Source: Flectobacillus major DSM 103
GTDB lineage: Bacteria > Bacteroidota > Bacteroidia > Cytophagales > Spirosomataceae
Assembly: GCF_000427405.1 (NCBI RefSeq)
Contig: NZ_KE386491.1
Location: 3,791,812-3,855,811, forward strand
Direction: 5' to 3'
DNA length: 64,000 bases
Shown here piece after piece: positions 13,617 to 27,900 of the stretch (the first letter of the stretch is position 1; each line of letters starts with the position of its first letter). Both the position numbers and the translations under genes were made by a program. The notes below the pieces were generated by a model, which had not been told where the DNA came from, made no database searches, and saw only the letters and a program-made list of their open reading frames with translations.

Positions 13617-16600
13617 GTGATAGAATATTCCTTACAAACCATATTAAAAACTTATGCCAAGCGACTCACCAACCTGAGCTCGAAAAATAAGTCGTTACTG
13701 TTACTCAATTTACCCAACGAACAGTTTATAGATGTTCATGAACTTGATTTTTTACAAAATCAGCCTTCTTTTTCGATAATAGAGCAGTTGATTGCTCAAA
13801 AAAATGCAATATCGCTATGCGATACCCTCGACCCTCGCAACGAGCGTGTCAACGAGGTAAGCAAACGGCTCAAAAAAATTGCCCGAACCGAAAAGTTTAT
13901 CGAGGATGAGCGAGGTGCAAAAGACTTATATGTGGGGTATCCAATGGTAAAAGGTAAACTCATGGATGGTACGCCTGTTCGTTGTCCGTTGTTGTTTTTT
14001 CCTGTAACACTTATTCAGAAAGTACAGAAACTTTCGCTCAATGCAGGATTAGATTCGGGTTCGGGTATTAAATGGCACTTACAACGCCGAGAAGAACCTG
14101 TTACATTCAACAGGAGTTTTTTGTTGGCATATTCACATTTTAACGAAATCAAGATTTTTGACAACTTCATAGAATACAGTTTTGAAGATTTCTCAAAAAC
14201 TTCACTTGAGTTTCGTACCCAGCTTTATGAATTATTGAAGGTATCGCCTCTCAATGTTAATTTTAATCAGGAGCTTTTTACGAATCAGTTACATTTTTTT
14301 GAAAAGATGTTGAAAGCTGATTTAGAAACTACCGAGCGAAATGGCGAGCTAAAATTATATCCTCAGGCTGTTTTGGGTATTTTCCCACAAGCGGGTTCGT
14401 TTTTAGTACCCGATTATGAATACCTTTTGGCCGAATCCGAGCAAAATACCACAGGTTTATTTCGTGAAGGCGAAATGCAGTGGCTTATTCCTTCGATTCT
14501 ACAACCACCACATTTCAAGATTCGAGAAGAAAAACTGATTACTCCTTTGCACATGGATGCTTCTCAGGAGCAAGTGCTTCGGGATATTAAATATGGCAAA
14601 TCATTGGTAGTACAAGGCCCTCCTGGCACAGGCAAATCGCAATTGATATGTAATTTGATAGCCGACTTTACGGCCAGAGGCAAAACCGTTTTGGTGGTTT
14701 CTCAAAAACGGGCCGCCCTCGATGTCGTTTATGAGCGTTTAGCCAAAATTGGTATGCAAAACTTTGTAGGGAGTATACATGATTTTAAGAACGACCGCAA
14801 ATACCTATACGACCAAGTTCTACATCAAATAGAGCAAATCGAGGCCTATAAAAGTCATAACTTAAGCCTCGATAGCATTTTTCTGGAAAGGACATTCGAC
14901 CAAGAAAGTAGAAAAATAGATAAAATAGTAGAAGAGTTACAGGATTTTAAAGATGCCCTGTTCGATACGTCCGTTTGTGGGGTATCTGTCAAAGAGCTTT
15001 ATCTTACCAGTTCGCCACAGCAGCCGTCGGTAGATTTAAGTACTTCTTATCAATATTTTAAACTAGACGAAATCGATGATTTTGTGAGTCGTCTCAAAAA
15101 ATATTATCAGTACCAGCAAAACCTTACCGATACATCTATTGGCAAGCAGTTTTGGGATAAGCGTTTGCGGTTTAATACATGGGCTTTTTCAGAAAAGAAA
15201 CTAATTCAACAGGCATTTGTCGATACTCTACAGAATATCCAGTCTACAGTTCAGCAGTTACATCTTTTGCTAGAAACACCACCGCAATATGAAGATTTAG
15301 GTTTGTTTGAACGAGAAAAAGACGCTGTTGTTTCTCTACAAAAAAAACTAAAAAACGAACGTGATTATCAGACATTTGTCTATAAAAGAAAACAAAAAAT
15401 TACAATTCGGGTACATCAACTCAATCAGCTATTCGAGCAAGTAAAAGTATGGTTTGGAGGACAAGGTATCGAGGTAACATTACCTTCTAGCCAGCTATTG
15501 CCTTTTATGGGCAAGCTATCAGATGCCCTTGATGCCAAAACCCATGCTTTTGGGGGAATGATGTGGACACTTTTCTCAAAACAAAAAAAGGAAATTCAAG
15601 ATGTTGTTTTGGCCAATGGCCTGAGTCTTTCCAACGAAGACCTACAAAAGCTTCAAGAGCGTCTTCACAACAGAATTGCTTTAGAAAAGTGGTGGCAAGA
15701 ATGGAAATATCTTTTTGAAAAACAAACTCACAACGACACTCAGCCCGTATGGGTTGGCAAAGGTTTTAGGTGGTTTGAACGCCACTTTGAACAGCTTCGT
15801 CATGCCATAGAAGCAGACGAAATTTGGCAAAAATTACATCTTGGACTCTATCTTGATGTTCAAGTGTTGTCATGGAAAGACTTTAGCCAGGATTTGACAA
15901 ACTTTTTGAACATTATACAGCCTTACACAGAGGCTAGTAAGATAGCCCACAAGTATTTGTCGGTAGAACAACAAAAAATGTTAATGTCGGTAAAAGCCTC
16001 ACAGGCGGTAGATATTACCCAATATTTGGACGAACATTTCGATTTACTTCATGAAGCCGACCAAATACATCAGTCGTTTACTAAGCCCGAGTTGGAGCTT
16101 GTCGACAAGCTCCACGCATATCAAGATACTTCAGTTGAAAAAATAAAGTTATTGATAAATAGCCTAAAGCTAGCTTGGATAGATGCTATTGAGCAAAAAT
16201 CGCCTATTTTGCGAGGGGTAAGCTCTTTGAAAATTACACAGCTCGAAGAAGACCTTCAAGCTGCTATTGAGAAAAAGCAACAATTGAGTAAAGAGATTTT
16301 ACAAATGAAATTGCGGGAACAAACCTATAGCTGCTTGGAAGTAAACCGCCTAAAAAATGTAACAACCTATCGCGAACTTAAGCATCAGGTTTCTAAAAAA
16401 AGAAAAATATGGTCTATCCGTAAACTCATGGCCGAATTATCGGACGAAGTTTTCAACTTGATACCTTGTTGGTTAGCTTCGCCAGAAACCGTTTCGGCAG
16501 TATTTCCCCTAACCACCAATAATCTAGCAGTTTCAGGCAAAAATGACAAAGATTTTCATGCAGTAGTGTTTGATTTAGTGATTTTTGACGAAGCCTCTCA

Positions 16601-17708
16601 GTGTTATGCCGAGCAAGGAGTACCGTCTATTTTTAGGGGTAAACAAATCGTTATTGCAGGCGATTCAAAACAATTAACCCCTTCAGATTTGTACCGTGTA
16701 CGCTTTGACGAAAATACCGATGATATTCCAGCTCTAGAAGTTGATTCATTTTTAGATTTAGGGTGTCAATATTTGCCACAATTACAGCTACAGGGCCATT
16801 ATCGTAGCCGTTCGCTAGATTTAATAGATTTTTCTAATCAACATTTTTATAATAACTCTCTACAATTGTTGCCTACTTTTGAAGACATGAATCATAAAGA
16901 GCCTGCCATTGATTTTGTAAAGGTAGATGACGGTTTATGGCAAAATAATGCCAATTATGCCGAAGCTATGCAAATACTAACTACAGTGCAAGCTCTCAGA
17001 GACTCACATCCACAAAAATCAGTAGGAATAGTAACGTTCAATTTCAAGCAGCAAAGCCTTATTCAAGACCTGTTGGAACAGCATATCAACAGGCAAGACA
17101 AAGGCCCTCTGGAGGCCCACAAAGAGCCCATTTTTGTAAAGAATATCGAGAACGTACAAGGCGATGAAAGAGACATCATTCTTTTCTCTATTGGCTACGC
17201 ACCAGATGCTTCAGGAAAATTTAGCATGAATTTTGGGACACTCAATGCTTCAGGAGGTGAAAACCGTTTGAATGTAGCAATTACACGAGCCAGAGAAAAG
17301 ATAATTATCGTAAGTAGTATTTTGCCACACCAGTTGAATGTTGAAAACGCCACCCACGAAGGGCCAAAGCTATTGAAAAAGTATTTGGAATATGCCAAAA
17401 GGGTAGCCGATGGCTTGTACACCCCTACCGTTGTGCCATCGAAAGTATATTGGGCTAATTGGCTTTTGAAAGAACAATTAAGCAATAGTGTGGTTAATTA
17501 TTTACAAGAATTACCCTTTGCCGATATTACCGTAAAAAGAGACCAACGCTATGATTCTTTAATCCTGACCGACGACGACCTATTCTATGAAGGTTTATCG
17601 GCCAAACAAACTTTTGCCTATATTCCGCAAAGTTTACGACAAAAAGGATGGAAATTTAGCCGTATCTTCAGCCGAGAGTACTGGAAAAATACAAAATACC
17701 CCAAATAA
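13617..17708 (+). CDS. large SF1 helicase/ATPase (DUF4011-type, DNA2/UPF1-like)
   Basis: 1363 residues, starting at a GTG. Residues 10-60 show the DUF4011-like N-terminus (LTNLSSKNKSLLLLNLPN). Walker A QGPPGTGKSQ is near 332-341, Walker B/motif II VIFDEASQC near 987, GDSKQLTPSD near 1015 (motif III), NVQGDERDII, and NVAITRAREK (motif VI) near 1218. About 640 mostly helical residues separate motif Ia and motif II. The end (GWKFSRIFSREYWKN) resembles the last strand/helix of the Vsr/PDDEXK nuclease that ends many such helicases, but here it looks reduced. Such proteins often occur in defence or DNA-repair loci; here it is coupled to ubiA-like DNA. Nuclease state and role are inference. Confidence 0.85.
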   Translation: MIEYSLQTILKTYAKRLTNLSSKNKSLLLLNLPNEQFIDVHELDFLQNQPSFSIIEQLIAQKNAISLCDTLDPRNERVNEVSKRLKKIARTEKFIEDERGAKDLYVGYPMVKGKLMDGTPVRCPLLFFPVTLIQKVQKLSLNAGLDSGSGIKWHLQRREEPVTFNRSFLLAYSHFNEIKIFDNFIEYSFEDFSKTSLEFRTQLYELLKVSPLNVNFNQELFTNQLHFFEKMLKADLETTERNGELKLYPQAVLGIFPQAGSFLVPDYEYLLAESEQNTTGLFREGEMQWLIPSILQPPHFKIREEKLITPLHMDASQEQVLRDIKYGKSLVVQGPPGTGKSQLICNLIADFTARGKTVLVVSQKRAALDVVYERLAKIGMQNFVGSIHDFKNDRKYLYDQVLHQIEQIEAYKSHNLSLDSIFLERTFDQESRKIDKIVEELQDFKDALFDTSVCGVSVKELYLTSSPQQPSVDLSTSYQYFKLDEIDDFVSRLKKYYQYQQNLTDTSIGKQFWDKRLRFNTWAFSEKKLIQQAFVDTLQNIQSTVQQLHLLLETPPQYEDLGLFEREKDAVVSLQKKLKNERDYQTFVYKRKQKITIRVHQLNQLFEQVKVWFGGQGIEVTLPSSQLLPFMGKLSDALDAKTHAFGGMMWTLFSKQKKEIQDVVLANGLSLSNEDLQKLQERLHNRIALEKWWQEWKYLFEKQTHNDTQPVWVGKGFRWFERHFEQLRHAIEADEIWQKLHLGLYLDVQVLSWKDFSQDLTNFLNIIQPYTEASKIAHKYLSVEQQKMLMSVKASQAVDITQYLDEHFDLLHEADQIHQSFTKPELELVDKLHAYQDTSVEKIKLLINSLKLAWIDAIEQKSPILRGVSSLKITQLEEDLQAAIEKKQQLSKEILQMKLREQTYSCLEVNRLKNVTTYRELKHQVSKKRKIWSIRKLMAELSDEVFNLIPCWLASPETVSAVFPLTTNNLAVSGKNDKDFHAVVFDLVIFDEASQCYAEQGVPSIFRGKQIVIAGDSKQLTPSDLYRVRFDENTDDIPALEVDSFLDLGCQYLPQLQLQGHYRSRSLDLIDFSNQHFYNNSLQLLPTFEDMNHKEPAIDFVKVDDGLWQNNANYAEAMQILTTVQALRDSHPQKSVGIVTFNFKQQSLIQDLLEQHINRQDKGPLEAHKEPIFVKNIENVQGDERDIILFSIGYAPDASGKFSMNFGTLNASGGENRLNVAITRAREKIIIVSSILPHQLNVENATHEGPKLLKKYLEYAKRVADGLYTPTVVPSKVYWANWLLKEQLSNSVVNYLQELPFADITVKRDQRYDSLILTDDDLFYEGLSAKQTFAYIPQSLRQKGWKFSRIFSREYWKNTKYPK

Positions 17709-18586: not shown

Positions 18587-18678
18587 TTTAAAGTTTGTGC
18601 AAAAAAATGATAATCAAATATTTATGTGTAACTTATAAGGTTATTTGAAAAAAAGTTGAAAAAATTTCTTTCAAACAC

Positions 18679-18709
18679 TTGCACAGTAAAGTTATAACGC
18701 CTAATTTTG
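18679..18709 (+). promoter_or_regulatory. promoter of the tRNA-Gly/tRNA-Leu unit
   Basis: TTG (18679-18681), a 20-bp spacer and TAATTTTG (18702-18709) fit the Bacteroidetes promoter consensus. Initiation near 18716 would be 18 bp before the tRNA-Gly. Confidence 0.7.
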
Positions 18710-18733
18710 CATCACAATTCAACGGAATCGTAA

Positions 18734-18806
18734 GCGAAAGTAGCTCAGCTGGTAGAGCGCAACCTTGCCAAGGTTGAGGTCGCGGGTTCGAACCCCGTCT
18801 TTCGCT
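18734..18806 (+). tRNA. tRNA-Gly (GCC)
   Basis: 73-nt cloverleaf. Acceptor GCGAAAG pairs with CTTTCGC, discriminator T. D-arm contains AGCTCAGCTGGTAGAGC; anticodon loop CTTGCCAAG with GCC; T-arm GCGGGTTCGAACCCCGT. CCA is not encoded. Confidence 0.97.
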
Positions 18807-18811
18807 CAGCT

Positions 18812-18835
18812 AAAAAGCACCTTAAGGTGCTTTTT
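18812..18835 (+). terminator. hairpin between the two tRNA genes
   Basis: Perfect 12-bp palindrome AAAAAGCACCTT / AAGGTGCTTTTT with T-run directly after tRNA-Gly. It would terminate or process between the tRNAs; the tRNA-Leu may be partly read-through or have its own promoter. Confidence 0.75.
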
Positions 18836-18870
18836 AAGTTTAGTAGGTAGAAGATTTATCTTCGACTGAA

Positions 18871-18956
18871 GCCAGGGTGGTGGAACTGGTAGACACGCAG
18901 GACTTAAAATCCTGTGAGCCGCAACGCTCGTACGGGTTCGATTCCCGTCCCCGGTA
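18871..18956 (+). tRNA. tRNA-Leu (TAA)
   Basis: 86-nt class II tRNA with a long variable arm (GAGCCGCAACGCTC). Anticodon TAA sits in GACTTAAAATC. Acceptor GCCAGGG pairs with CCCCGGT with a G:T at 1:72 and an unpaired A:C at 4:69. Discriminator A; CCA is not encoded in register. Confidence 0.95.
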
Positions 18957-18981
18957 CACCTAAGGCAATTAAGTGCCAAGC

Positions 18982-19027
18982 AAAAAGAGTATAAATAGCT
19001 AAATTTTAGCCGTTTATACTCTTTTTT
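18982..19027 (+). terminator. terminator after tRNA-Leu
   Basis: AAAAAGAGTATAAA (18982-18995) pairs with the region 19013-19026 (TTTATACTCTTTTT) with a T-run. It marks the left boundary of the AT-rich accessory region. Confidence 0.85.
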
Positions 19028-19706
19028 GTTTCTAACAGATACCTTTTGTTATTTTTTATTTAAGCATAATATCGTCCCCCAATCGTCCTATCCCTACAAA
19101 ATTAACTATTGATTTATTGTGTGAAAAATAAAAAAGAAATGCCGCTGATTATTCTGGTGGCATAACCGTCTTGCCCGAATATTTTCAGCAATTCATACTA
19201 CGAAGTTTATTTTCCCTATAAGCTTAGGATAATAATGACTTATCGATATTTCTACTTCTTAGAAGTATCAATAACAATCTGTGACAAAGGAAAAGCTAAA
19301 GATTTTTTCTTCCTATTGGCAATAGAATAACCCTTCTTTTTGAATCTATGTCTTTATGAAGTATTACTATGCTTCAGGAAATAGGAAAATGGGTTTCTCT
19401 AATCAAAACATCATCTTTGTAGTCAAAAAAAATATAATTTAATTGAATATATTTTGACGTATACGCTGTATATTAGTAAAAAAAACACCTTACTAATCTA
19501 AATTCAACGCTTATGTATTTTGATAATTCATTTACTCCAAACCAAATTCTTATAAGACTTCTTGAATGTATAGTGCCAACTTTTCCTATGTTATGGGTAT
19601 CAGACAATCTGGGTACTTCTATAAATTCTAGTTAGCTACGCAAATATCACATATCCCTCTAGACATTTTATTGTTCAAACACTTCTGATTAAAAGACTAT
19701 ACCCGT
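19028..19706. other. gene-free AT-rich region before the Crp-like regulator
   Basis: About 680 bp without a convincing gene. Only short frames exist: 31 codons from the ATG at 19235 and 40 codons at 19513-19635 (MYFDNSFTPNQILIRLLEC...), neither recognisable. The 5' half could be a decayed gene remnant, but I cannot identify a parent family. It should also contain the regulator's promoter. Confidence 0.5.
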
Positions 19707-20294
19707 ATGAACTTTTTACATCAACTGATAAGTAATAATAGTACTACAGAGTTACTTGAAATCGAAAAATTAACGTCATGTTTTAAACTACATACTATAT
19801 CTAGCGGAACAATATTGTTAGATGTAGGCCAAATTTCTAATAACATTTATTTTGTTAAATCTGGTACTTTAAGAGAATTCAAGTATACAGATGAAGATAT
19901 AACATCTACTCTCTCCTTAATCCCCGAAAATAATTTTTCATTTATCCCTGATAGTTTTTGGAAAAAGAGTCCAACGATGATTGGCTTGCAGGCACTTGAA
20001 AAAGTAAAACTATACTCGATAACAAGAGAGGATTTGAATTATCTGAAACTAGAATTGAGCTTAGGCACAAAACTAGAATTGCTAATAAACTCAAATGTCC
20101 TCGCTAGAACTTTATCCTATTGTTCCATTTTACGTGAAACACCAGAAGTTAGACTAGAATGGTTTAATCAATTTTATCCTGGGCTATCTAATCGAATCCC
20201 ACACAAATATATTGCATCTTATCTAAATATTAGACCTGAAACATTAAGTAGAATAAGAGGTAGATGCTCTAATAGTAGAAAAAATATGGTGTAA
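19707..20294 (+). CDS. Crp/Fnr-like transcriptional regulator
   Basis: 195 residues. Residues 15-115 form a cyclic-nucleotide-binding-like beta-roll (GTILLDVGQISNNIYFVKSGTLREF), although the phosphate-binding cassette of true cAMP receptors (RPRTA) is absent. Residues ~165-190 form the HTH with HKYIASYLNIRPETLSRIRG, the Bacteroidetes Crp-like form in which the recognition helix contains ETLSRIR. It precedes the Cys-rich peptide gene, whose promoter carries repeated TTTGA-like motifs. Regulation of that promoter is inferred. Confidence 0.85.
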   Translation: MNFLHQLISNNSTTELLEIEKLTSCFKLHTISSGTILLDVGQISNNIYFVKSGTLREFKYTDEDITSTLSLIPENNFSFIPDSFWKKSPTMIGLQALEKVKLYSITREDLNYLKLELSLGTKLELLINSNVLARTLSYCSILRETPEVRLEWFNQFYPGLSNRIPHKYIASYLNIRPETLSRIRGRCSNSRKNMV

Positions 20295-20319
20295 ATATGT
20301 ATAATTCTACGCTTATATA

Positions 20320-20365
20320 TTGATTTGAGTCAATTGATTTAATGATTTGAAGCAATTTGAATTCA
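20320..20365 (+). promoter_or_regulatory. repeated ATTTGA-like motifs, candidate operator
   Basis: Between the regulator and the peptide gene, ATTGATTTGAG, AATTGATTTAATG, ATGATTTGAAG and CAATTTGAATTC follow one another at roughly 10-14-bp spacing and overlap the -33 box at 20356. The pattern suggests a multi-site operator on one DNA face. Confidence 0.45.
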
Positions 20366-20386
20366 TGTTCAGTTAGCTTAATTTTG
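20356..20386 (+). promoter_or_regulatory. promoter of the Cys-rich peptide gene
   Basis: TTTG (20356-20359), a 19-bp spacer and TAATTTTG (20379-20386): a perfect Bacteroidetes consensus promoter. Start near 20393 gives a ~59-nt leader to the ATG at 20452. Confidence 0.75.
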
Positions 20387-20451
20387 AAATCAAGCAAGCG
20401 AATGATTCACTTGTGAGTTCTTAAATCAAACCTTCTAAAATTTAACTTATT

Positions 20452-20610
20452 ATGAAAGCGAAACTTTTCTTAGCGTTATCTGTAGTAGCATGTGCAGTAA
20501 CTGTATCTCTAGCTTGTGGTAGAGCAGAGTGTGGTGGCGGAAACGACAAATGTTGTAGTTCTGGAAGTATTACTTACTACACCACAGCGACACCACCTCA
20601 AGAAGTATAG
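20452..20610 (+). CDS. small exported Cys-rich peptide (52 aa)
   Basis: 52 residues: a Lys-start, hydrophobic signal segment (residues 3-21, KAKLFLALSVVACAVTVSLA) followed by a short mature part with Cys at 22, 27, 34 and 35, a glycine cluster (GGGNDKCC) and a Thr/Ser/Pro-rich tail. The sequence SLAC at 19-22 resembles but does not fit a lipobox well (Ser at -3), so lipoprotein or type I processing are both possible. It has its own promoter and terminator. The arrangement resembles Bacteroidetes exported small-peptide families such as NVEALA or DUF6520, but I see no diagnostic motif, so family assignment is not made. Confidence 0.75.
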   Translation: MKAKLFLALSVVACAVTVSLACGRAECGGGNDKCCSSGSITYYTTATPPQEV

Positions 20611-20634
20611 ACTGTAGTATTGAGACTATTTTAT

Positions 20635-20672
20635 AGAGCTATTCCCAAGGAAACAAAGGAATAGCTCTTTTA
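20635..20672 (+). terminator. terminator/attenuator after the peptide gene
   Basis: AGAGCTATTCC (20635-20645) pairs perfectly with GGAATAGCTCT (20658-20668), 12-nt loop, followed by TTTTAAT. It lies between the peptide gene and the downstream operon, so the peptide would be made in excess of the membrane proteins through partial read-through. Confidence 0.85.
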
Positions 20673-20740
20673 ATATATTCTTATAGCGATTGCTGAATTT
20701 GTTATCACAAGTTATTTACATCATACTAATGTTAATAAGA

Positions 20741-21766
20741 ATGAAATTCAAGTTTCTATTATTTTTTGTACCAATTATTGGGCTAGGGTTAATGTACAAG
20801 CAATCCCAAAAGAAAACATTGGAACATGATTTCCAGAGAAAATATATAAAAAGCAATAGTTTGAAAATCGCCCAAACAATTTCCAATTTACTGGTAGATG
20901 GATTATTCCTTGACGACTCTTTGCTTTGGGTAAACTCACGAAGCAAAATCATTGCTATTGATAAAGGTGGAAAAATTTTCAAAAATATTCCTGCTAAAAA
21001 AGGAGAAAATAATCCGATTGTCAATTTTTATATTAATCAGGATTCTCTTTATTTCTACCAAGGAAATTCTTCAACAGTCTCTATTTCTTCAATAAAAAAC
21101 AATGCTTTGCAATACAATAGCGTAAAAGATATTCGATTTAACTTCCCTATTATTGATTTTGCAAAATCTAGTAATTTATTGGTGTTTTTGGCATTACAAA
21201 ACAATGCAAGCTTTTTAGTTAAAAGTGCTGATTTAAGCGGAAAAAATATACAAGAATTCTCCACTTCATTTGGGAATATTGAAGGAGGCGATATGATTTA
21301 TTCAGGGAAATTAATTTCGTCTTTTGGGAAAACTTTGTTTATACCTTTTTATACAGATTCAGTGGTCATATTTAATAATAATGAGCTAAAAACCAGTTAT
21401 GCTTCTTTTATTGATAGAGTAAATCAAAAAGTTGAATATAATCTTAATGGAGATAGATATACATTAAAGAAGGGTGTGCAGATTTTACGAATAGGAGCCT
21501 CAATAGTTAAGGACTATCTGTTTGTTAGCTCTTTTGTAAAATCAAAAAATGAATCAATGGAAGCTTTTAGAAAGAATACTACTATTGATGTTTATGACTC
21601 AAATACATTTTCTTATCTATTTAGCTTTCAAATACCAAACTATCACAATTTAAGAATCGGTGACTTCAGCATTTCAAGTAATATGCAGCTAGCAGCCAAA
21701 TATAATGATACTGTAGTGATATATGACATTAAAGACCTTTTGAACAATAATCAAGATGCACAATAA
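20741..21766 (+). CDS. beta-propeller-like membrane-anchored/exported protein
   Basis: 341 residues from the ATG at 20741; an in-frame ATG at 20690 would add a second hydrophobic stretch before MKFKFLLFF and is less likely. An N-terminal hydrophobic segment (residues 3-18) acts as signal anchor. The rest is a series of beta strands with recurring hydrophobic-aspartate turns (DGLFLDDSLLWV, IDFAKSSNLLVFLAL, IVKDYLFVSSFV), like the six-bladed beta-propeller proteins (BF3455/NHL type) found next to small exported peptides in Bacteroidetes. Its stop overlaps the next start by 11 bp. Fold inferred, function unknown. Confidence 0.65.
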   Translation: MKFKFLLFFVPIIGLGLMYKQSQKKTLEHDFQRKYIKSNSLKIAQTISNLLVDGLFLDDSLLWVNSRSKIIAIDKGGKIFKNIPAKKGENNPIVNFYINQDSLYFYQGNSSTVSISSIKNNALQYNSVKDIRFNFPIIDFAKSSNLLVFLALQNNASFLVKSADLSGKNIQEFSTSFGNIEGGDMIYSGKLISSFGKTLFIPFYTDSVVIFNNNELKTSYASFIDRVNQKVEYNLNGDRYTLKKGVQILRIGASIVKDYLFVSSFVKSKNESMEAFRKNTTIDVYDSNTFSYLFSFQIPNYHNLRIGDFSISSNMQLAAKYNDTVVIYDIKDLLNNNQDAQ

Positions 21767-22175
21767 TAAAATATTGATAGTACTTAAATATCTTATTGCG
21801 ATATTATTTATATACGCAGGTGTATATAAAATAATAGATGTTGAAATTTTTAAATCCCAAATGGGAGAATCTCCCTTACTTCCTGAAACATTGATACCAT
21901 ATATTGCTATCATCTTACCTATTTCAGAGATAGTTCTTGGTCTTTGCTTAATTTTTAATATTCAAGTTCTTTTTTCCCTCTGGACATCCTCACTTTTAAT
22001 GGTGTTTTTTTCTAGTTACCTCATTATATTATTTACTATGTATGAAAAGCCTCCATGTGCTTGCGGAGGTATTTTAAGTAAAATGGATTATCCTGAGCAT
22101 ATTGTGTTCAATATTATTTATACTCTAATTTGTATTGTAGCCGTATATCTTTATGAAAAAAAGCAAACGAATTAA
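21756..22175 (+). CDS. MauE/DoxX-like redox-associated membrane protein
   Basis: 139 residues, four hydrophobic helices (about 8-25, 45-66, 70-92, 112-132). Between helices 3 and 4 is the loop KPPCACGGILSKMDYPEH with a Cys-x-Cys pair, a feature of the MauE/DoxX group, some members of which act in periplasmic thiol-disulfide exchange (MauE in methylamine dehydrogenase maturation). Placement between the propeller-like and receptor genes and overlap with both argue for one operon. A role in oxidising the Cys-rich peptide is a hypothesis. Confidence 0.75.
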   Translation: MHNNKILIVLKYLIAILFIYAGVYKIIDVEIFKSQMGESPLLPETLIPYIAIILPISEIVLGLCLIFNIQVLFSLWTSSLLMVFFSSYLIILFTMYEKPPCACGGILSKMDYPEHIVFNIIYTLICIVAVYLYEKKQTN

Positions 22176-24429
22176 CTACTTTATAATAGGCTTATTGCTG
22201 CTTAATTCTTTCGTCATTAACGCTCAATCAGTAACAAAGTTTATCATCAAAGATAGTTTATCAATGACTCCTTTATCGTACTCAAGCATAAAGGTTTATA
22301 ATAAGAAGAGAAATAGCACTACAGGCGGGATCTCGGACTCACTTGGAGTGTATTCGTATAAATCGAATAAAATTGATAGTCTCATTATTTCTGCTAGTTA
22401 TGTTGGCTTTCATCCTAAATCGGTAAAATATATCGCATCTGATACTACCTATATCATTTTACTCTCCCCTCAAAAAGAGTTTATGGATGAAATATTAGTT
22501 AAGGGAAAAAAAGCCTTACTAGAAGTTATGCCAGATAGAACAAGGTTAAATATTAACAAGACGCTAGAAAGTGGCAAAAAGATAGCCGAAACACTAAGAA
22601 AGTTACCATTCGTTGTTGTAACTGGTGATGACATATTAATAAAGGGAAAATCAAACTTTAGAATATTTAAAGATGGTGTTCCGAGTAATCTTACCATAAG
22701 AGATTTAAGAAACATGCCCTCTATAATGGTTAAGTCAATTGAAATCATCTATTTCCCATCATCAAAATACGAAGGCGAAGTAGAACAAATTATTAATATT
22801 ATTACCAATAAGGATGATATTTACAATGGAGGAACCATGTGGGCTGGTACAGGTATCCGTTCTGGAGGTATTTTTAATATTAGTACTCTTGGAATAAATA
22901 CATCTTCCATCACTCCCCTAAAAAGCAGTAATTTTTCTTTTAGCATTAGCGATGACAAAATTACCTATAATACACAGACAGAACAATTTGTCAATAAAAA
23001 TCAGTATAATCAAAGTGTAAATTCAAAGAGTAGGTCTTCTGATTTTAACTTAGGTTATTCAATGGCTTTCCAATTACCAAAATCACAGTCTATAAGTTTG
23101 GGTATTGATTCTCATTTCGAGCCTAAAGTCGAAAATGCTGATATTACAACCGCTCCTGGTGCTGAACTAAGAGAAAATAAAGTGACAAATCATATATGGT
23201 CTTTAAATTTGAATGCCAACTATAGTAAGATTTGGAAAAATAAATCAGCTTTTTATTTCTCTAACCTCTTACAATATGGCAACTCTCAATATGAGCTAAA
23301 TTCTCAAAATGAATCGGTTAGTTTTTATAACCAAAACAAAAGTAAAACACTTTCATACATAAATCAGATGGACTATAGCTGGAATACTTTTTATGGAATT
23401 GCGGCTGAAGTAGGAGGTGCTTTTATTTTAAGACACTATTCCCAAAACCTAAACTATCAAACAGGTTTATTAAACGACGACCTCAATTATACGCAGAGTA
23501 TTCAGGGGGGATATGTAAGTCTTACCAAAAAATACCAAAAAATCTTTTTGAGAATTGGAACAAGGGTTGAAAATACTTACAATAAGTCAGAAAATGATAC
23601 CTCTTTCAACGCATTAAATATTCTTCCGAGAGCATTGATTAATTATACATTATCAAAAACTTCTAAAATATCTCTCTCTTACAGTAGAAGAGTACAAAGA
23701 CCTGAATTACGTTTTTTGACTAAATTCAGAGATGTTTCCAATCCCCTAAGTTTAGTGTACGGAAACACAAAACTTCAAAATGAGCTGTATGATGCATTAA
23801 GTCTAAATTATACCTTATCGTTAGGAGCAACCAATATAAACCTATCTGCAATATCAACATGGGGACAAAATAGAATCAGTAGTATTAGAACAGCAAATGA
23901 TAGCCAAGTATTATTAACATACTTTAATGTAGCCAAATCCTCGTCTTATGGATTAGAATATAGTATTAATACAAGTCTATTATCTGACAAGCTATACATT
24001 TTTTCATCAGGCTCACTAAAAGAATACAAAATAGAAGGATGGACATTTCAGAATTCAGGATGGCTTAAAAGCATTAATTTGGGATTCACATTTGCACCAT
24101 CCGATAAAGTTTCCATTGATGTTTTTGGAAACATGTTATCTAATAATGTAGCTCTTCAGGTATCAGCAGGTAATAGTTTTTATATGGATTGTATATTAAA
24201 CTACAGATTATCCAATAATTCAACGCTAACATTTAGAACTCAGAATCCTATTATAGATAAAGTTGAAACTAAATATAACACTGATGCCACAGGTATTTAT
24301 ATTTCATCCCTAAATCACTATCAAGGTAGAACGATTCAGGTATCATATAATCATTCATTTGGTCGAACAAAAAATGCAGCTTCGAGAACCAAAGAGATAA
24401 AAGTTAGTGATTTGAAGAAAGAAGAATAA
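22153..24429 (+). CDS. outer-membrane beta-barrel protein with CarboxypepD_reg-like domain
   Basis: 758 residues with signal peptide (residues 1-24). Residues ~25-105 form a CarboxypepD_reg/CNA-B-like domain (FIIKDSLSMTPLSYSSIKVY). Residues 110-220 resemble a receptor plug (LVKGKKALLEVMPDRTRLNI... IMVKSIEIIYFPSSKYEGEVEQIINIIT). The rest is strand-rich, aromatic-rich outer-membrane barrel (OMP_b-brl_3 type). These proteins are TonB-receptor relatives but no TonB box is evident. It overlaps the MauE-like gene by 23 bp. Probable surface partner or exporter/receptor for the locus. Confidence 0.85.
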   Translation: MKKSKRINYFIIGLLLLNSFVINAQSVTKFIIKDSLSMTPLSYSSIKVYNKKRNSTTGGISDSLGVYSYKSNKIDSLIISASYVGFHPKSVKYIASDTTYIILLSPQKEFMDEILVKGKKALLEVMPDRTRLNINKTLESGKKIAETLRKLPFVVVTGDDILIKGKSNFRIFKDGVPSNLTIRDLRNMPSIMVKSIEIIYFPSSKYEGEVEQIINIITNKDDIYNGGTMWAGTGIRSGGIFNISTLGINTSSITPLKSSNFSFSISDDKITYNTQTEQFVNKNQYNQSVNSKSRSSDFNLGYSMAFQLPKSQSISLGIDSHFEPKVENADITTAPGAELRENKVTNHIWSLNLNANYSKIWKNKSAFYFSNLLQYGNSQYELNSQNESVSFYNQNKSKTLSYINQMDYSWNTFYGIAAEVGGAFILRHYSQNLNYQTGLLNDDLNYTQSIQGGYVSLTKKYQKIFLRIGTRVENTYNKSENDTSFNALNILPRALINYTLSKTSKISLSYSRRVQRPELRFLTKFRDVSNPLSLVYGNTKLQNELYDALSLNYTLSLGATNINLSAISTWGQNRISSIRTANDSQVLLTYFNVAKSSSYGLEYSINTSLLSDKLYIFSSGSLKEYKIEGWTFQNSGWLKSINLGFTFAPSDKVSIDVFGNMLSNNVALQVSAGNSFYMDCILNYRLSNNSTLTFRTQNPIIDKVETKYNTDATGIYISSLNHYQGRTIQVSYNHSFGRTKNAASRTKEIKVSDLKKEE

Positions 24430-24998
24430 TATAATTTTGTCTCAATAAGCAGTTTTAACGTTATAGATACCCCCAAAATGGTTTTGTGAAAATGTTGTCA
24501 TGTATCTGATGTCAAATAATACTTTGCTGTCATTTTCTGGTTTGGACAACATCATCGTTGTGGTGTGATTTTTTGACTTTCTGGGCAACAGCATCCCATA
24601 TCTGTAATAGATTTAATCTCTAATTAAATATTTGAGCCCCAAAATGGCGGTTTTCCTTGATTTTCATCCATTCGTTTTCAGAATCACAATCAGGTATAGC
24701 GGCTTTTGCATGGATGAATAGCATGTTGTTCTCAAAATAAAATATTATCTATAAAATACAGGCTTATTCGGTTGCTTTTGCTAGTGTGTCGTTTTTAGTG
24801 CTAAACGGAAGTATTTGTCTTAAACGATATATATGGAATAAAATATGCCGTTCAATTTATTTTTAGTGTGATAAAATAAGGTTGAAATCGCTCATGGTTG
24901 AGAACTTAGATTTTCTATTAACTGGCGAACTTTTTCACCAGTTAATAGAAAAATTGTATAGGCCTCAATAACTTCTTTTTCAGCAAAAAGGGTTTCTC
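24430..24998. other. gene-poor region right of the peptide locus
   Basis: 570 bp of AT-rich sequence. The only frame is a 50-residue reverse ORF at 24442-24594 (MLLPRKSKNHTTTMMLSKPEN...) which I do not recognise. Two CCCCAAAATGG copies occur (near 24473 and 24644). A perfect 15-bp inverted repeat lies at 24911-24952. No transposase or phage gene is seen. Confidence 0.5.
24911..24952. repeat. perfect 15-bp inverted repeat
   Basis: TTTTCTATTAACTGG (24911-24925) and CCAGTTAATAGAAAA (24938-24952) flank a 12-nt spacer, 46 bp past the stop of the heme-binding dehydrogenase gene on the reverse strand. Neither strand shows a T-run after the stem, so it is not a standard terminator. Confidence 0.75.
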
Positions 24999-27900
24999 CT
25001 ATTTTTGATTAGCCAAAAACTCTACCAAATCACGAATTTCCCTTTTAGATAATAAAGAACCCATTGGAGGCATACTCGATGGAATATTTTCTCTTTTAGC
25101 AATCCTTGCCACAGGAATCACCAAAGGTTCGGCATCGGAGGTTGTAATCACCAATTCATGGTCATTTTCTCGGGCTAATGTACCTGTCACTTCTTGTCCA
25201 TCTTTTAGTTTTAAAGAAACCGTTCCGTAGCCTGGCGAAAGCCTAGCACTTGGTTCAATAAGGGCTTGTAGGAGTTGCTCACGCGTTAGGGTACTTCCGA
25301 TTTTAGATAAGTTAGGCCCTACCGAACCACCTTCACCACCCAATGAGTGACAACGGACACATTGTGCTGTTGAATTGTAATTGAAGGTATTCCAACCATT
25401 ATTGCGATTTCCTCCAAATAAGGCATCAGCATATTCTTCCATTGGCGAAGCACTCGGTTTTATGGCTGCAATTTTGGCTTTTAAAGCTTCAGAACCAGAC
25501 GCATCAACGGCTTCTTTTAATTCTAAGGAAACACTTGGCGATAACTGTTTTTCTTGTAATTGGTCAATCAATCCTCCTAGAATAGCCTGAGTTTTGTCAA
25601 GAGCAAGCTTGCCCAATACCACCAACATTTGTTGTTGTTCTTTGATACCACCTTTGGCAAAAATAGTTTTGACAATAGCAGGAAGGCTTTCGGCCGACAC
25701 GTTGTTATTATTCAAAAGGCCTAAGGCAACAGTTCTAACGCTTTCGTCTTTGTCTTCCATACCTTTTTTGATAATAGCCTCAATTTGGGCGTAATTCAAT
25801 TTATTCAAGGCTGGTAAAATAGCTATTTTTACTTTATTGCTTTCGGTATTGGCATAAATAGTGGCTAGTTCGGTATTAAATTCTGTAATATTCAAATCCG
25901 ATAATAACCCAGCCATAGCTACTAATGATTCGGGGTTAGTTTCTTTCAAGAACTTACCGATATAAGGCTCAATTTTTGTTTTTACCAATGCTCCGTCTCT
26001 TTCTAGCTTACCACGATAACGTCCGTCCACTCTATCCAAAACCGATGGATTTGACCACGAACCTAAAGTTGCTAAGGCTTCAGCCTTAATGTCGTCTTTG
26101 ATGTCGGTACGGGTCGAAAACTTAATCAATAAATCAAGCTCTTTTTCTGTTCCTACACGCAAGGTAGCATTGATAGCACGGCGAAGCAATGGTTCAGAAG
26201 TAAATCGGGTTTCGCTCAAAGTAGCCGCCAAAGCTGGCAGTGCATTCGGAATAGATAAGTCGTCGTTGATTGCACGTGCTGCTTCTGTGACAATATATTC
26301 ATCTTTATCATTCAAGAAAACAGCGATATTGTCGTTTTTCATTTTTCGTAATACCAATACTGCGGCTACACGAAGAGCCTTACTAGGGCTTTTGGCAAGG
26401 GCTACTACAGGCTCAACTTTGCCGATACGAGACAACGCCAAAACTGCCGCATGACGTAAATAAACATCTTCGTCGTTGTTGGCTTCTAAAAGCTGAATCA
26501 AAGGGTTTACGGCATCTTGGTAAGCAATACGGCCAAGGGCTTCGGCAGCATAGAATTTTACTCGTGGATTGTTGTTTTGTAATAAAGGCACTAGTTCGCT
26601 TCCAATAGCAGGAATTTTGGCATCGCCCAAAATTTTGGCAGTTTGTGCGATAATCTCAGCGTCTTTATCTTTCAAAAGAGCAATAAGCGGTGATGCAAAA
26701 GAAGCATCTTTACGAGCCAACTGGCCTATGCCCCAAATAGCATGAATACGAGCCAATTGATTGGTATTCTGATTAATTGCTTTTGTGAATTGAGCAAAGC
26801 CTTTGTTTCCTCTATTAACCAATTCAAACTGAGCCTTTTGGCGAATACGCATATCGACATTCGACAATAAACCATAAAGAACATCGTCGGTTTGTTTGGC
26901 ATAATCTAGTTGAATCAAACGCTTGGTTTCTTGTCTGATAGCTTCGTTATCATTTTTATCTTTCGATACGTCAAGTTTCCATACACGGCCATAATTTTTG
27001 GTATCCCAGCCATTAATCCAGTCGGCTACATACAATGCTCCGTCTGGGCCAAATTTAATACCTGTTGGTAAAATACCGCTAACGAGGTCTTTTTCGCCAT
27101 CAAGTTCAAACGAAGCACCTTTGGGTTTAAGCCCAAACGACCAAATATGAGAACGTGTAGGGCTACCCACAAACTCAACCAAGAAAAATTTATTTTTCCA
27201 TTCAGACCCCAAGGCTGTGCCAGGGTTATATACCATTCCAGTTGGGCCATTGTGGTAGTTCATAATAGGCGGGATAATATAGGCTGCTTGTCCTTCCCAA
27301 CGAGGTTTGTAGAGTTTTTCGTCCATCCAAACATTAAACTTATTGTTTTTTGGGTCGGTGTATTTGCCGTATTGCCAGTTAGAACGCCATCCAGCATCCG
27401 AGCCTTCTACTACGTGAACTAATCGTTCGCTTTCGCCAGGGTAGTCGCCATCGTTATCGGATGAAATAAGGTTGCCATATTGGTCAAATACAAACTCGTG
27501 GGTATTGCGTAAACCCGCTGCAAAAATTTCAAAATCACTTCCGTCTGGATTAGAACGAGCAATAATACCCGAATTTGGGTTTTCAAATTTTTTGCCATCG
27601 GCCGTCGTAATATTAGCACCAATATCGCCGATATTCCAGTAAATACGTCCATCGGGGCCTTCGGTAACGCCCGACATACCGTGCCCCCCAAAGCCAATGT
27701 GTACACCGTATCCATGACTAATGGAGGTTTTTTTGTCATAAACGCCATCGCCGTTGGTGTCTACCAAACGCCAAAGGTCGGGTGCAATACCAATAAACAT
27801 TTCTTTAGCTCGAACCAAAAGCCCCCCTGCTACATCGGTAACTTCTTCAAAAAAGTCATTGACAACTCGTTTTGAAATATCCGCAATACCATCGTTGTCG

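Follow-up and report, generated by a model that had tools for sequence, protein, structure and literature searches.

MauE, together with MauD, is known from the mau cluster and the maturation of methylamine dehydrogenase. In Streptomyces, a MauE homologue is found in putative clusters for ribosomally synthesized and post-translationally modified peptides (RiPPs) with cysteine-rich precursors, and the report describing them speaks of a speculated role of MauE in disulfide formation (PMC7794033). Here we analyse a five-gene locus at positions 19707-24429 of a 64,000-nucleotide stretch of Flectobacillus major DSM 103 (contig NZ_KE386491.1, positions 3,791,812 to 3,855,811; the whole stretch is called the window below), in which genes for a Crp/Fnr-like regulator, a 52-residue exported peptide, a propeller protein, a MauE protein and an OMP_b-brl_3 outer-membrane receptor follow one another. 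The locus is a variant of the MauE-linked cysteine-peptide loci that were proposed to encode RiPPs in Streptomyces.

As in the Streptomyces clusters, a MauE homologue stands beside a gene for a small cysteine-rich precursor; the precursors there have at least eight cysteines, however, and neither a propeller nor an outer-membrane receptor is mentioned in the accessible part of that report (PMC7794033). With the mau cluster the locus shares the MauE family and speculated disulfides, which in that cluster would lie in an exported cysteine-rich subunit, but none of the five genes encodes methylamine dehydrogenase and the substrate would be a 31-residue peptide. CutF/CruR-type sensing peptides are similar in being small exported cysteine proteins followed by a stem-loop and by envelope genes downstream (PMC9973294). 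Unlike in that type, the proline motif is not conserved, the hairpin lies off the start codon, and in relatives the peptide gene is often the last of its operon. Loci of Flavobacterium and its relatives that unite DUF6520 (PF20130) peptides with MauE, a propeller and SusC/SusD contain the same MauE and propeller families, an adjoining exported peptide with an even number of cysteines, a local regulator and an outer-membrane uptake protein nearby. Compared with them, the window peptide is shorter, has a CGGG-CC core and does not match DUF6520, and MauE and the propeller are separate proteins. The window receptor is an OMP_b-brl_3 protein encoded in the operon, whereas the DUF6520 loci have convergent SusC/SusD genes with an S9-type peptidase or a thioredoxin-like protein. 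Literature searches, which left most subscription papers outside, found no paper naming DUF6520 or NVEALA, and none of the matches listed for MauE combined with propellers, RiPPs or Flavobacterium describes such a set of genes; among the matches listed for MauE, small cysteine-rich exported peptides and hairpins behind precursor genes, only PMC7794033 and PMC9973294 were relevant.

We read the locus, with a probability of about 0.5, as an operon that would make and handle a small secreted, disulfide-bearing peptide by means of a MauE-propeller oxidising unit and an outer-membrane receptor of its own. All five genes lie on the forward strand, at 19707-20294, 20452-20610, 20690-21766, 21756-22175 and 22153-24429. 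An earlier note on this DNA had described them as having one orientation, with overlaps among the last three, and its coordinates were reproduced: 11 bp are shared by the propeller and MauE genes (21756-21766) and 23 bp by the MauE and OMP_b-brl_3 genes (22153-22175). The family assignments proposed there were likewise borne out, by Pfam for MauE and OMP_b-brl_3 and by an AlphaFold2 model with Foldseek comparison for the propeller.

The peptide gene (20452-20610) encodes a precursor whose signal peptide, judged by eye, would be cut after SLA to leave a mature part of 31 residues with cysteines at positions 1, 6, 13 and 14, forming the motif C-x4-C-GGG-x3-CC. The ORF (open reading frame) looks coding, since its GC content at codon positions 1/2/3 (0.48/0.58/0.23) follows a coding-type pattern and two homologues keep all four mature cysteines. 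One of these, in L192 (L numbers denote surveyed loci), comes from a genome outside the window's class and is 33% identical to the window peptide (BLASTP E 2e-4); its gene lies directly upstream of a propeller gene (profile match 5e-16), which is followed by an overlapping MauE gene (1e-33). The other, in L238 from a different family of the same order (phmmer 4e-8), is followed by an outer-membrane protein, a propeller in two pieces with a broken frame, and MauE. The neighbourhood survey of peptide homologues that had been suggested earlier thus found them beside the same gene families. The motif C-x4-C-x-GG-x3-CC is common to the three peptides. Aligned to the window peptide, the mature parts score 50 (L192) and 72 (L238), where shuffled sequences average 21.7 and 23.3 (sd 4.5 and 5.2), and no shuffle out of 5000 reached either score; the L192-L238 pair is weaker (9/5000). 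Twelve loci of weaker peptide matches (L197-L208, comprising ten of 20 weaker profile matches given as loci and two from another search) contain no MauE or propeller within about 1.5 kb. Neither the peptide nor the propeller protein matches a Pfam or NCBIfam family above cut-off. For the peptide, no Pfam family, DUF6520 (PF20130) included, was found up to E 10, and there was no NVEALA match in Pfam or NCBIfam, libraries that presumably contain an NVEALA model. The earlier hint at NVEALA or DUF6520 therefore holds for the system, as DUF6520 peptides accompany MauE and propeller proteins of these kinds in related loci, and fails for the peptide itself.

The MauE protein (21756-22175, 139 aa) matches PF07291 at 5.1e-30 (104.8 bits, cut-off 27). 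Hydropathy predicts four spans (1-19, 49-67, 69-87 and 115-133), with C101-A-C103 in the loop between spans 3 and 4; the proline, both cysteines and the GG of its PCxCGG motif are invariant in an 11-row alignment. The propeller gene may start at TTG 20690, at the in-frame ATG 20729 or at ATG 20741, the last giving a protein of 341 aa (20741-21766) with an N-terminal membrane helix and no cysteine. An AlphaFold2 model built from 59 sequences (mean predicted local distance difference test, pLDDT, 71.9; predicted template-modelling score, pTM, 0.71) has a single N-terminal helix at residues 2-26 with strands after it; residues 51-91 and 173-187 are poor, and blade number is not settled by the model. 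The best 50 of 1067 Foldseek matches are mostly propeller proteins by title (NHL, WD40, BamB, YncE), with E values from 7e-9 and, among these 50, modest TM-scores of at most 0.49 on the query. The model, together with profile kinship to propellers that are fused to MauE or adjoin it in relatives, supports a predicted propeller fold for the third gene. The last gene (22153-24429) encodes an OMP_b-brl_3 receptor or transporter of 758 aa (PF14905, 9.1e-43; 147.3 bits, cut-off 27) with a weak CarboxypepD-like match at its N-terminus. A gene of this family also adjoins MauE in L105/L070 and L177 (by Pfam) and in L238 (by phmmer). A SusC/SusD pair was not found: the scan, which took in the five genes and two genes flanking them, gave no SusD-type match.

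We surveyed the surroundings of MauE in other genomes. The best 80 of 83 loci from a MauE scan of named genomes, mostly Flavobacterium, were joined with 40 stretches chosen by MauE or propeller matches and with the window, giving 120 loci once the shared L105 was subtracted; nine near-duplicates and four loci without MauE were then dropped, leaving 107. Because loci were found via MauE or the propeller, the counts describe the neighbourhoods of these two genes and lean to Flavobacterium. In 95 of the 107 loci MauE has an exported-looking cysteine ORF close by (same strand, 40-130 aa, at least two cysteines after residue 18, no more than three genes and 3 kb away), compared with 37 out of 573 control genes taken from these loci; among the 12 loci failing this rule some hold a peptide that it missed, for example L073 and L089. 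Cysteine numbers after residue 18 are two or four in 103 of 109 exported-looking ORFs and three, five or seven in the other six. MauE keeps PCxC[GS] in 101/107 cases. The propeller is fused to MauE in 63 of these loci, is a separate neighbour in 21 and is absent from 23. SusC/SusD genes are nearby in 89/107; other common companions are a regulator of the AraC or Crp type and an S9-type peptidase or thioredoxin-like protein. All four relatives' peptides that were tested match DUF6520, three of them above cut-off. Three loci of one genus in the window's family (L177, L178 and L179) have two cysteine peptides (CKKANQxC), a propeller, MauE and a large outer-membrane protein in the window's order and with overlapping genes; of these three, L177 was scanned with Pfam, which identified the last protein as OMP_b-brl_3.

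The peptide gene is set apart from its neighbours by a putative promoter and a hairpin. An exact match to TTTG-N19-TAnnTTTG, which we take to be the Bacteroidetes promoter consensus, is present on the forward strand at 20356-20386 (TTTG-N19-TAATTTTG) and ends 65 bp upstream of the gene; the pattern has six sites in the window versus 2.9 expected, a number reached or exceeded in 7 of 100 shuffles. Between the peptide and propeller genes, a forward-strand hairpin with a U-rich tail (20630-20673; -21.3 kcal/mol, z -4.8) is probably a partial terminator. The arms reach as far as 20673, which leaves about 55 nt to the closest in-frame ATG (20729) and less to a start at the TTG (20690). A terminator scan did not report this hairpin, probably because its arms are 12 nt apart. 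With the exact promoter match and the strong hairpin downstream, the suggestion that the peptide has its own promoter and terminator is supported.

The hairpin recurs in relatives. A first measure that allowed one mismatch and GU pairs was too lax (stems of at least 9 in 77/150 control gaps) and was replaced by perfect stems and energy z-scores. With mononucleotide shuffles, z was below -3 in 12 of 12 gaps of 35-130 nt between an exported cysteine ORF of at most 110 aa and a separate downstream propeller gene, against 18 of 114 codirectional control gaps (Fisher 4e-9); these 12 gaps are partly related, as L177-L179 are from one genus and L164 and L166 are close MauE neighbours. Eleven of the 12 also pass with dinucleotide shuffles, L176 being at -2.6. 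L106 was left out because the gene caller chose a longer ORF. None of 68 gaps leading from MauE or a propeller to a peptide reached z < -3, and the gap between the two L177 peptides has no hairpin (z +0.6). Among 11 loci added later (L235-L245), a hairpin is found in four of five gaps (L235-L238, z -4.3 to -9.7), the next gene in L238 being the outer-membrane protein; the L239 gap lacks one (z -1.1) and contains another small ORF. Surveyed hairpins end 10-75 nt upstream of the called start codon. As the hairpin is conserved behind the peptide gene, the simplest reading is that it terminates transcription in part and thereby keeps the peptide in excess over the proteins that process it.

These observations suggest the following course of events. 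The 52-residue precursor would cross the inner membrane and be shortened to a four-cysteine form of about 31 residues, while the hairpin would stop most transcripts so that the peptide exceeds the proteins acting on it. MauE may oxidise the peptide's cysteines and the propeller may hold the peptide or order the partners. In fused MauE-propeller proteins hydropathy predicts a fifth span before the propeller (3/3 checked), which, given the four spans of MauE, would put the propeller on that face of the membrane where the CxC loop lies; the one anchor of a propeller encoded separately is consistent with this topology too. The weakest step, proposed from the gene neighbourhood, is the last: the OMP_b-brl_3 protein could bind the finished peptide, alone or loaded, and move it across the outer membrane or receive it there. 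The Crp-like protein is likely to be a local regulator. Of the model sketched in the earlier note, the proposed maturation of the peptide by MauE has gained support from the fusions, the frequency of cysteine peptides near MauE and their even cysteine numbers; for recognition at the outer membrane, the receptor gene has been confirmed and the neighbourhood alone speaks for its role.

Several observations weigh against this reading. The propeller is missing from the 23 MauE loci counted above. In Thermoflavifilum thermophilum (L105, the same locus as L070) MauE and OMP_b-brl_3 occur with no propeller and no intact peptide called. In L240, L241, L242 and L245, two-cysteine peptides abut a propeller lipoprotein without a hairpin gap, and the stretches fetched contain no MauE, which is thus dispensable in some cases; L243 and L244 have no such peptide beside the propeller. 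An AcrB-type resistance-nodulation-division (RND) pump directly follows peptide, propeller and MauE in L192 (1905-5033), where the window has its outer-membrane protein, and this pump and the SusC/SusD genes near most MauE loci make the link to the outer-membrane protein a loose one. The peptide family has three members found (window, L192 and L238), and a two-row peptide profile gave just two convincing matches, the window and L192, in 395 genomes of the phylum. MauE could act on another substrate. A structure model of the outer-membrane protein from a two-row alignment was discarded (pLDDT 31).

Short ORFs in two of these settings deserve description. A broken frame with a signal-peptide-like start and cysteines lies just before MauE and the outer-membrane protein in L070 (7858-8060) and may be a decayed peptide gene. 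The exported peptides of L240 (8357-8551), L241 (8823-9174), L242 (8823-9254) and L245 (6930-7311) are 55-64 aa long, mostly in tandem, with a CPxGDxxxC-like core; L245 also has an adjoining outer-membrane protein.

The locus lies in an AT-rich stretch (19001-25000, GC about 0.31) to the right of tRNA-Gly and tRNA-Leu genes. ARAGORN placed tRNA-Leu (TAA) on the forward strand at 18871-18957, where it forms the left border of the variable stretch, in agreement with the position beside tRNA-Leu given before. In the four larger genes GC is 0.283-0.317, while 43 other genes of the window average 0.395 (sd 0.023); the four are 3.4 to 4.9 sd low in GC and 2.9 to 4.2 sd low in GC at third codon positions (GC3); the peptide ORF has low GC3 (0.231) and an overall GC that is not low (0.429). 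The choice among synonymous codons shows no clear anomaly (z -0.2 to -1.2). Thus, the AT-richness claimed for the locus relative to its flanks holds for the four larger genes, and codon usage is ordinary. UbiA, tRNA-Gly and tRNA-Leu to the left are kept in 4/4 same-genus genomes, and in these four the locus is absent beside the same tRNAs. On the right, three of them have a different flank in common and the fourth differs again; since none has the right flank of the window, no clean empty site can be named. Among the best 20 of 35 repeat families around 18600-25600 no convincing integration repeats were found, and MauE had no match on plasmids.

Such a setting raises the question of whether unrelated genes were gathered in an AT-rich island around a spurious peptide ORF. 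Low GC agrees with this, as does the fact that no MauE or propeller homologue was found in the four same-genus genomes, but genomes from other families have the combination too, and the cysteine pattern of the peptide is kept in them; because the peptide homologues in L192 and L238 sit with propeller and MauE, the locus is not a chance cluster, and we regard this explanation as barely credible. Part of the same setting, an AT-rich stretch beside tRNAs that same-genus genomes lack, would suit a bacteriocin or competition signal with the propeller or outer-membrane protein serving immunity or uptake, as would variable peptides next to constant partners and a patchy distribution (propeller profiles match 6/200 genomes of the family and 15/321 of the order, the own genome being counted in both). 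No peptide ABC exporter is encoded among the five genes, however, and their comparison with PADLOC and PHROGs gave chance-level scores only, with no PADLOC match up to E 1. We hold this to be very unlikely.

The main rival is a CutF-like exported sensor, in which translation and export slowed by metal or redox conditions would open the stem-loop and switch on the propeller, MauE and the outer-membrane protein. The window peptide fits in part: it is shorter than 150 aa, has a putative signal peptide, cysteines and PP in its last 15 residues, and is followed by a stem-loop and, within 1000 nt, by a same-strand gene of an operon that includes an outer-membrane receptor. CutF-like genes occur in many Bacteroidota, and the cysteine type often precedes genes for outer-membrane efflux, RND or TonB-like proteins, according to their description (PMC9973294); the gene after MauE in L192 is AcrB-like. 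The family as a whole does not fit, as PP is found in the last 15 residues of only 2/12 peptides preceding a propeller, and the listed Flavobacterium loci with a fusion have the peptide behind MauE-propeller, the next large gene being usually convergent. The hairpins end 10-75 nt before the start codon, and the U-rich tail in the window resembles a terminator rather than a lid on a start site. Sensing of this kind is therefore quite unlikely in our view. Metal themes in CutF-like cysteine proteins (PMC9973294) also bear on the idea that the peptide is a metal carrier, either a metallophore or a periplasmic metal chaperone, whose thiols bind metal while MauE sets their redox state and the outer-membrane protein imports the loaded form. 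The four cysteines, two of them vicinal, and the presence of a receptor gene in the operon are in line with this, and an S9-type peptidase and SusC/SusD convergent to many DUF6520 loci (S9 assigned by Pfam in L120) would suit uptake and breakdown of a peptide. On the other hand, Pfam and NCBIfam gave no metal-binding family for the peptide, no inner-membrane metal transporter is encoded among the five genes, and even cysteine counts suit disulfides at least equally. A metal carrier is thus unlikely too, and production of a disulfide-bearing peptide is the reading we retain.

Somewhat short of an even chance, in our estimate, is the wider proposal that the window locus belongs to a widespread Bacteroidota class, in which exported cysteine peptides would be served by a MauE-propeller unit, often a single fused protein, as a peptide-specific disulfide catalyst and a TonB-type outer-membrane transporter would recognise the finished peptide; the window locus would be a condensed form in which a single operon unites all four components, with a peptide family of its own (C-x4-C-xGG-x3-CC). 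If this is true, it implies a dedicated maturation route for disulfide peptides and a large set of unstudied secreted peptides with adjoining receptors. It also offers a testable function for MauE outside methylamine metabolism, for a propeller family for which no Pfam model was found, and for tiny exported cysteine peptides, both DUF6520 and the new family.

The loci of Flavobacterium are uniform (L090-L169, for example L091:6906-16366), with an AraC-like regulator, a MauE-propeller fusion and a four-cysteine DUF6520-like peptide followed by convergent genes for an S9-type peptidase, SusD and SusC; we found no paper on this locus, of which several species have more than one. The S9 protein of L120 (by Pfam) distantly resembles a lasso-peptide isopeptidase (NCBIfam 3e-32, far below cut-off). 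A 71-aa peptide with a CC pair, encoded beside MauE and a propeller in L237 (8713-8928), matches a home-made DUF6520-like profile (2e-4) and perhaps links DUF6520 peptides with the CC peptides of the window. A MauE tree was not used to place the window, as it had long branches, a zero-length window branch and unsettled bootstrap values.

The regulator gene (19707-20294, 195 aa) matches cNMP_binding PF00027 at 6.6e-6 (26.5 bits, just below the cut-off of 27.5), with a weak Crp-type helix-turn-helix (HTH_Crp_2, 15.5 bits versus a cut-off of 27); Crp-like genes are also found upstream of MauE in L082, L089, L176, L187 and L189. Elsewhere in the window, a 1363-aa helicase-like protein (13617-17708) matches the PADLOC candidate PDC-S37 (7e-148) and probably lies outside the island, because pieces of its homologues adjoin UbiA in L217 and L218. 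Finally, a 55-aa peptide ending in GPSCLGWW is encoded near MauE-peptide loci in L078 (7175-7342), L086 (7419-7586) and L186 (7111-7278); in L078 and L086 it is close to what we take to be the start of a C39-peptidase-like gene, and looks like part of a bacteriocin-type export locus.

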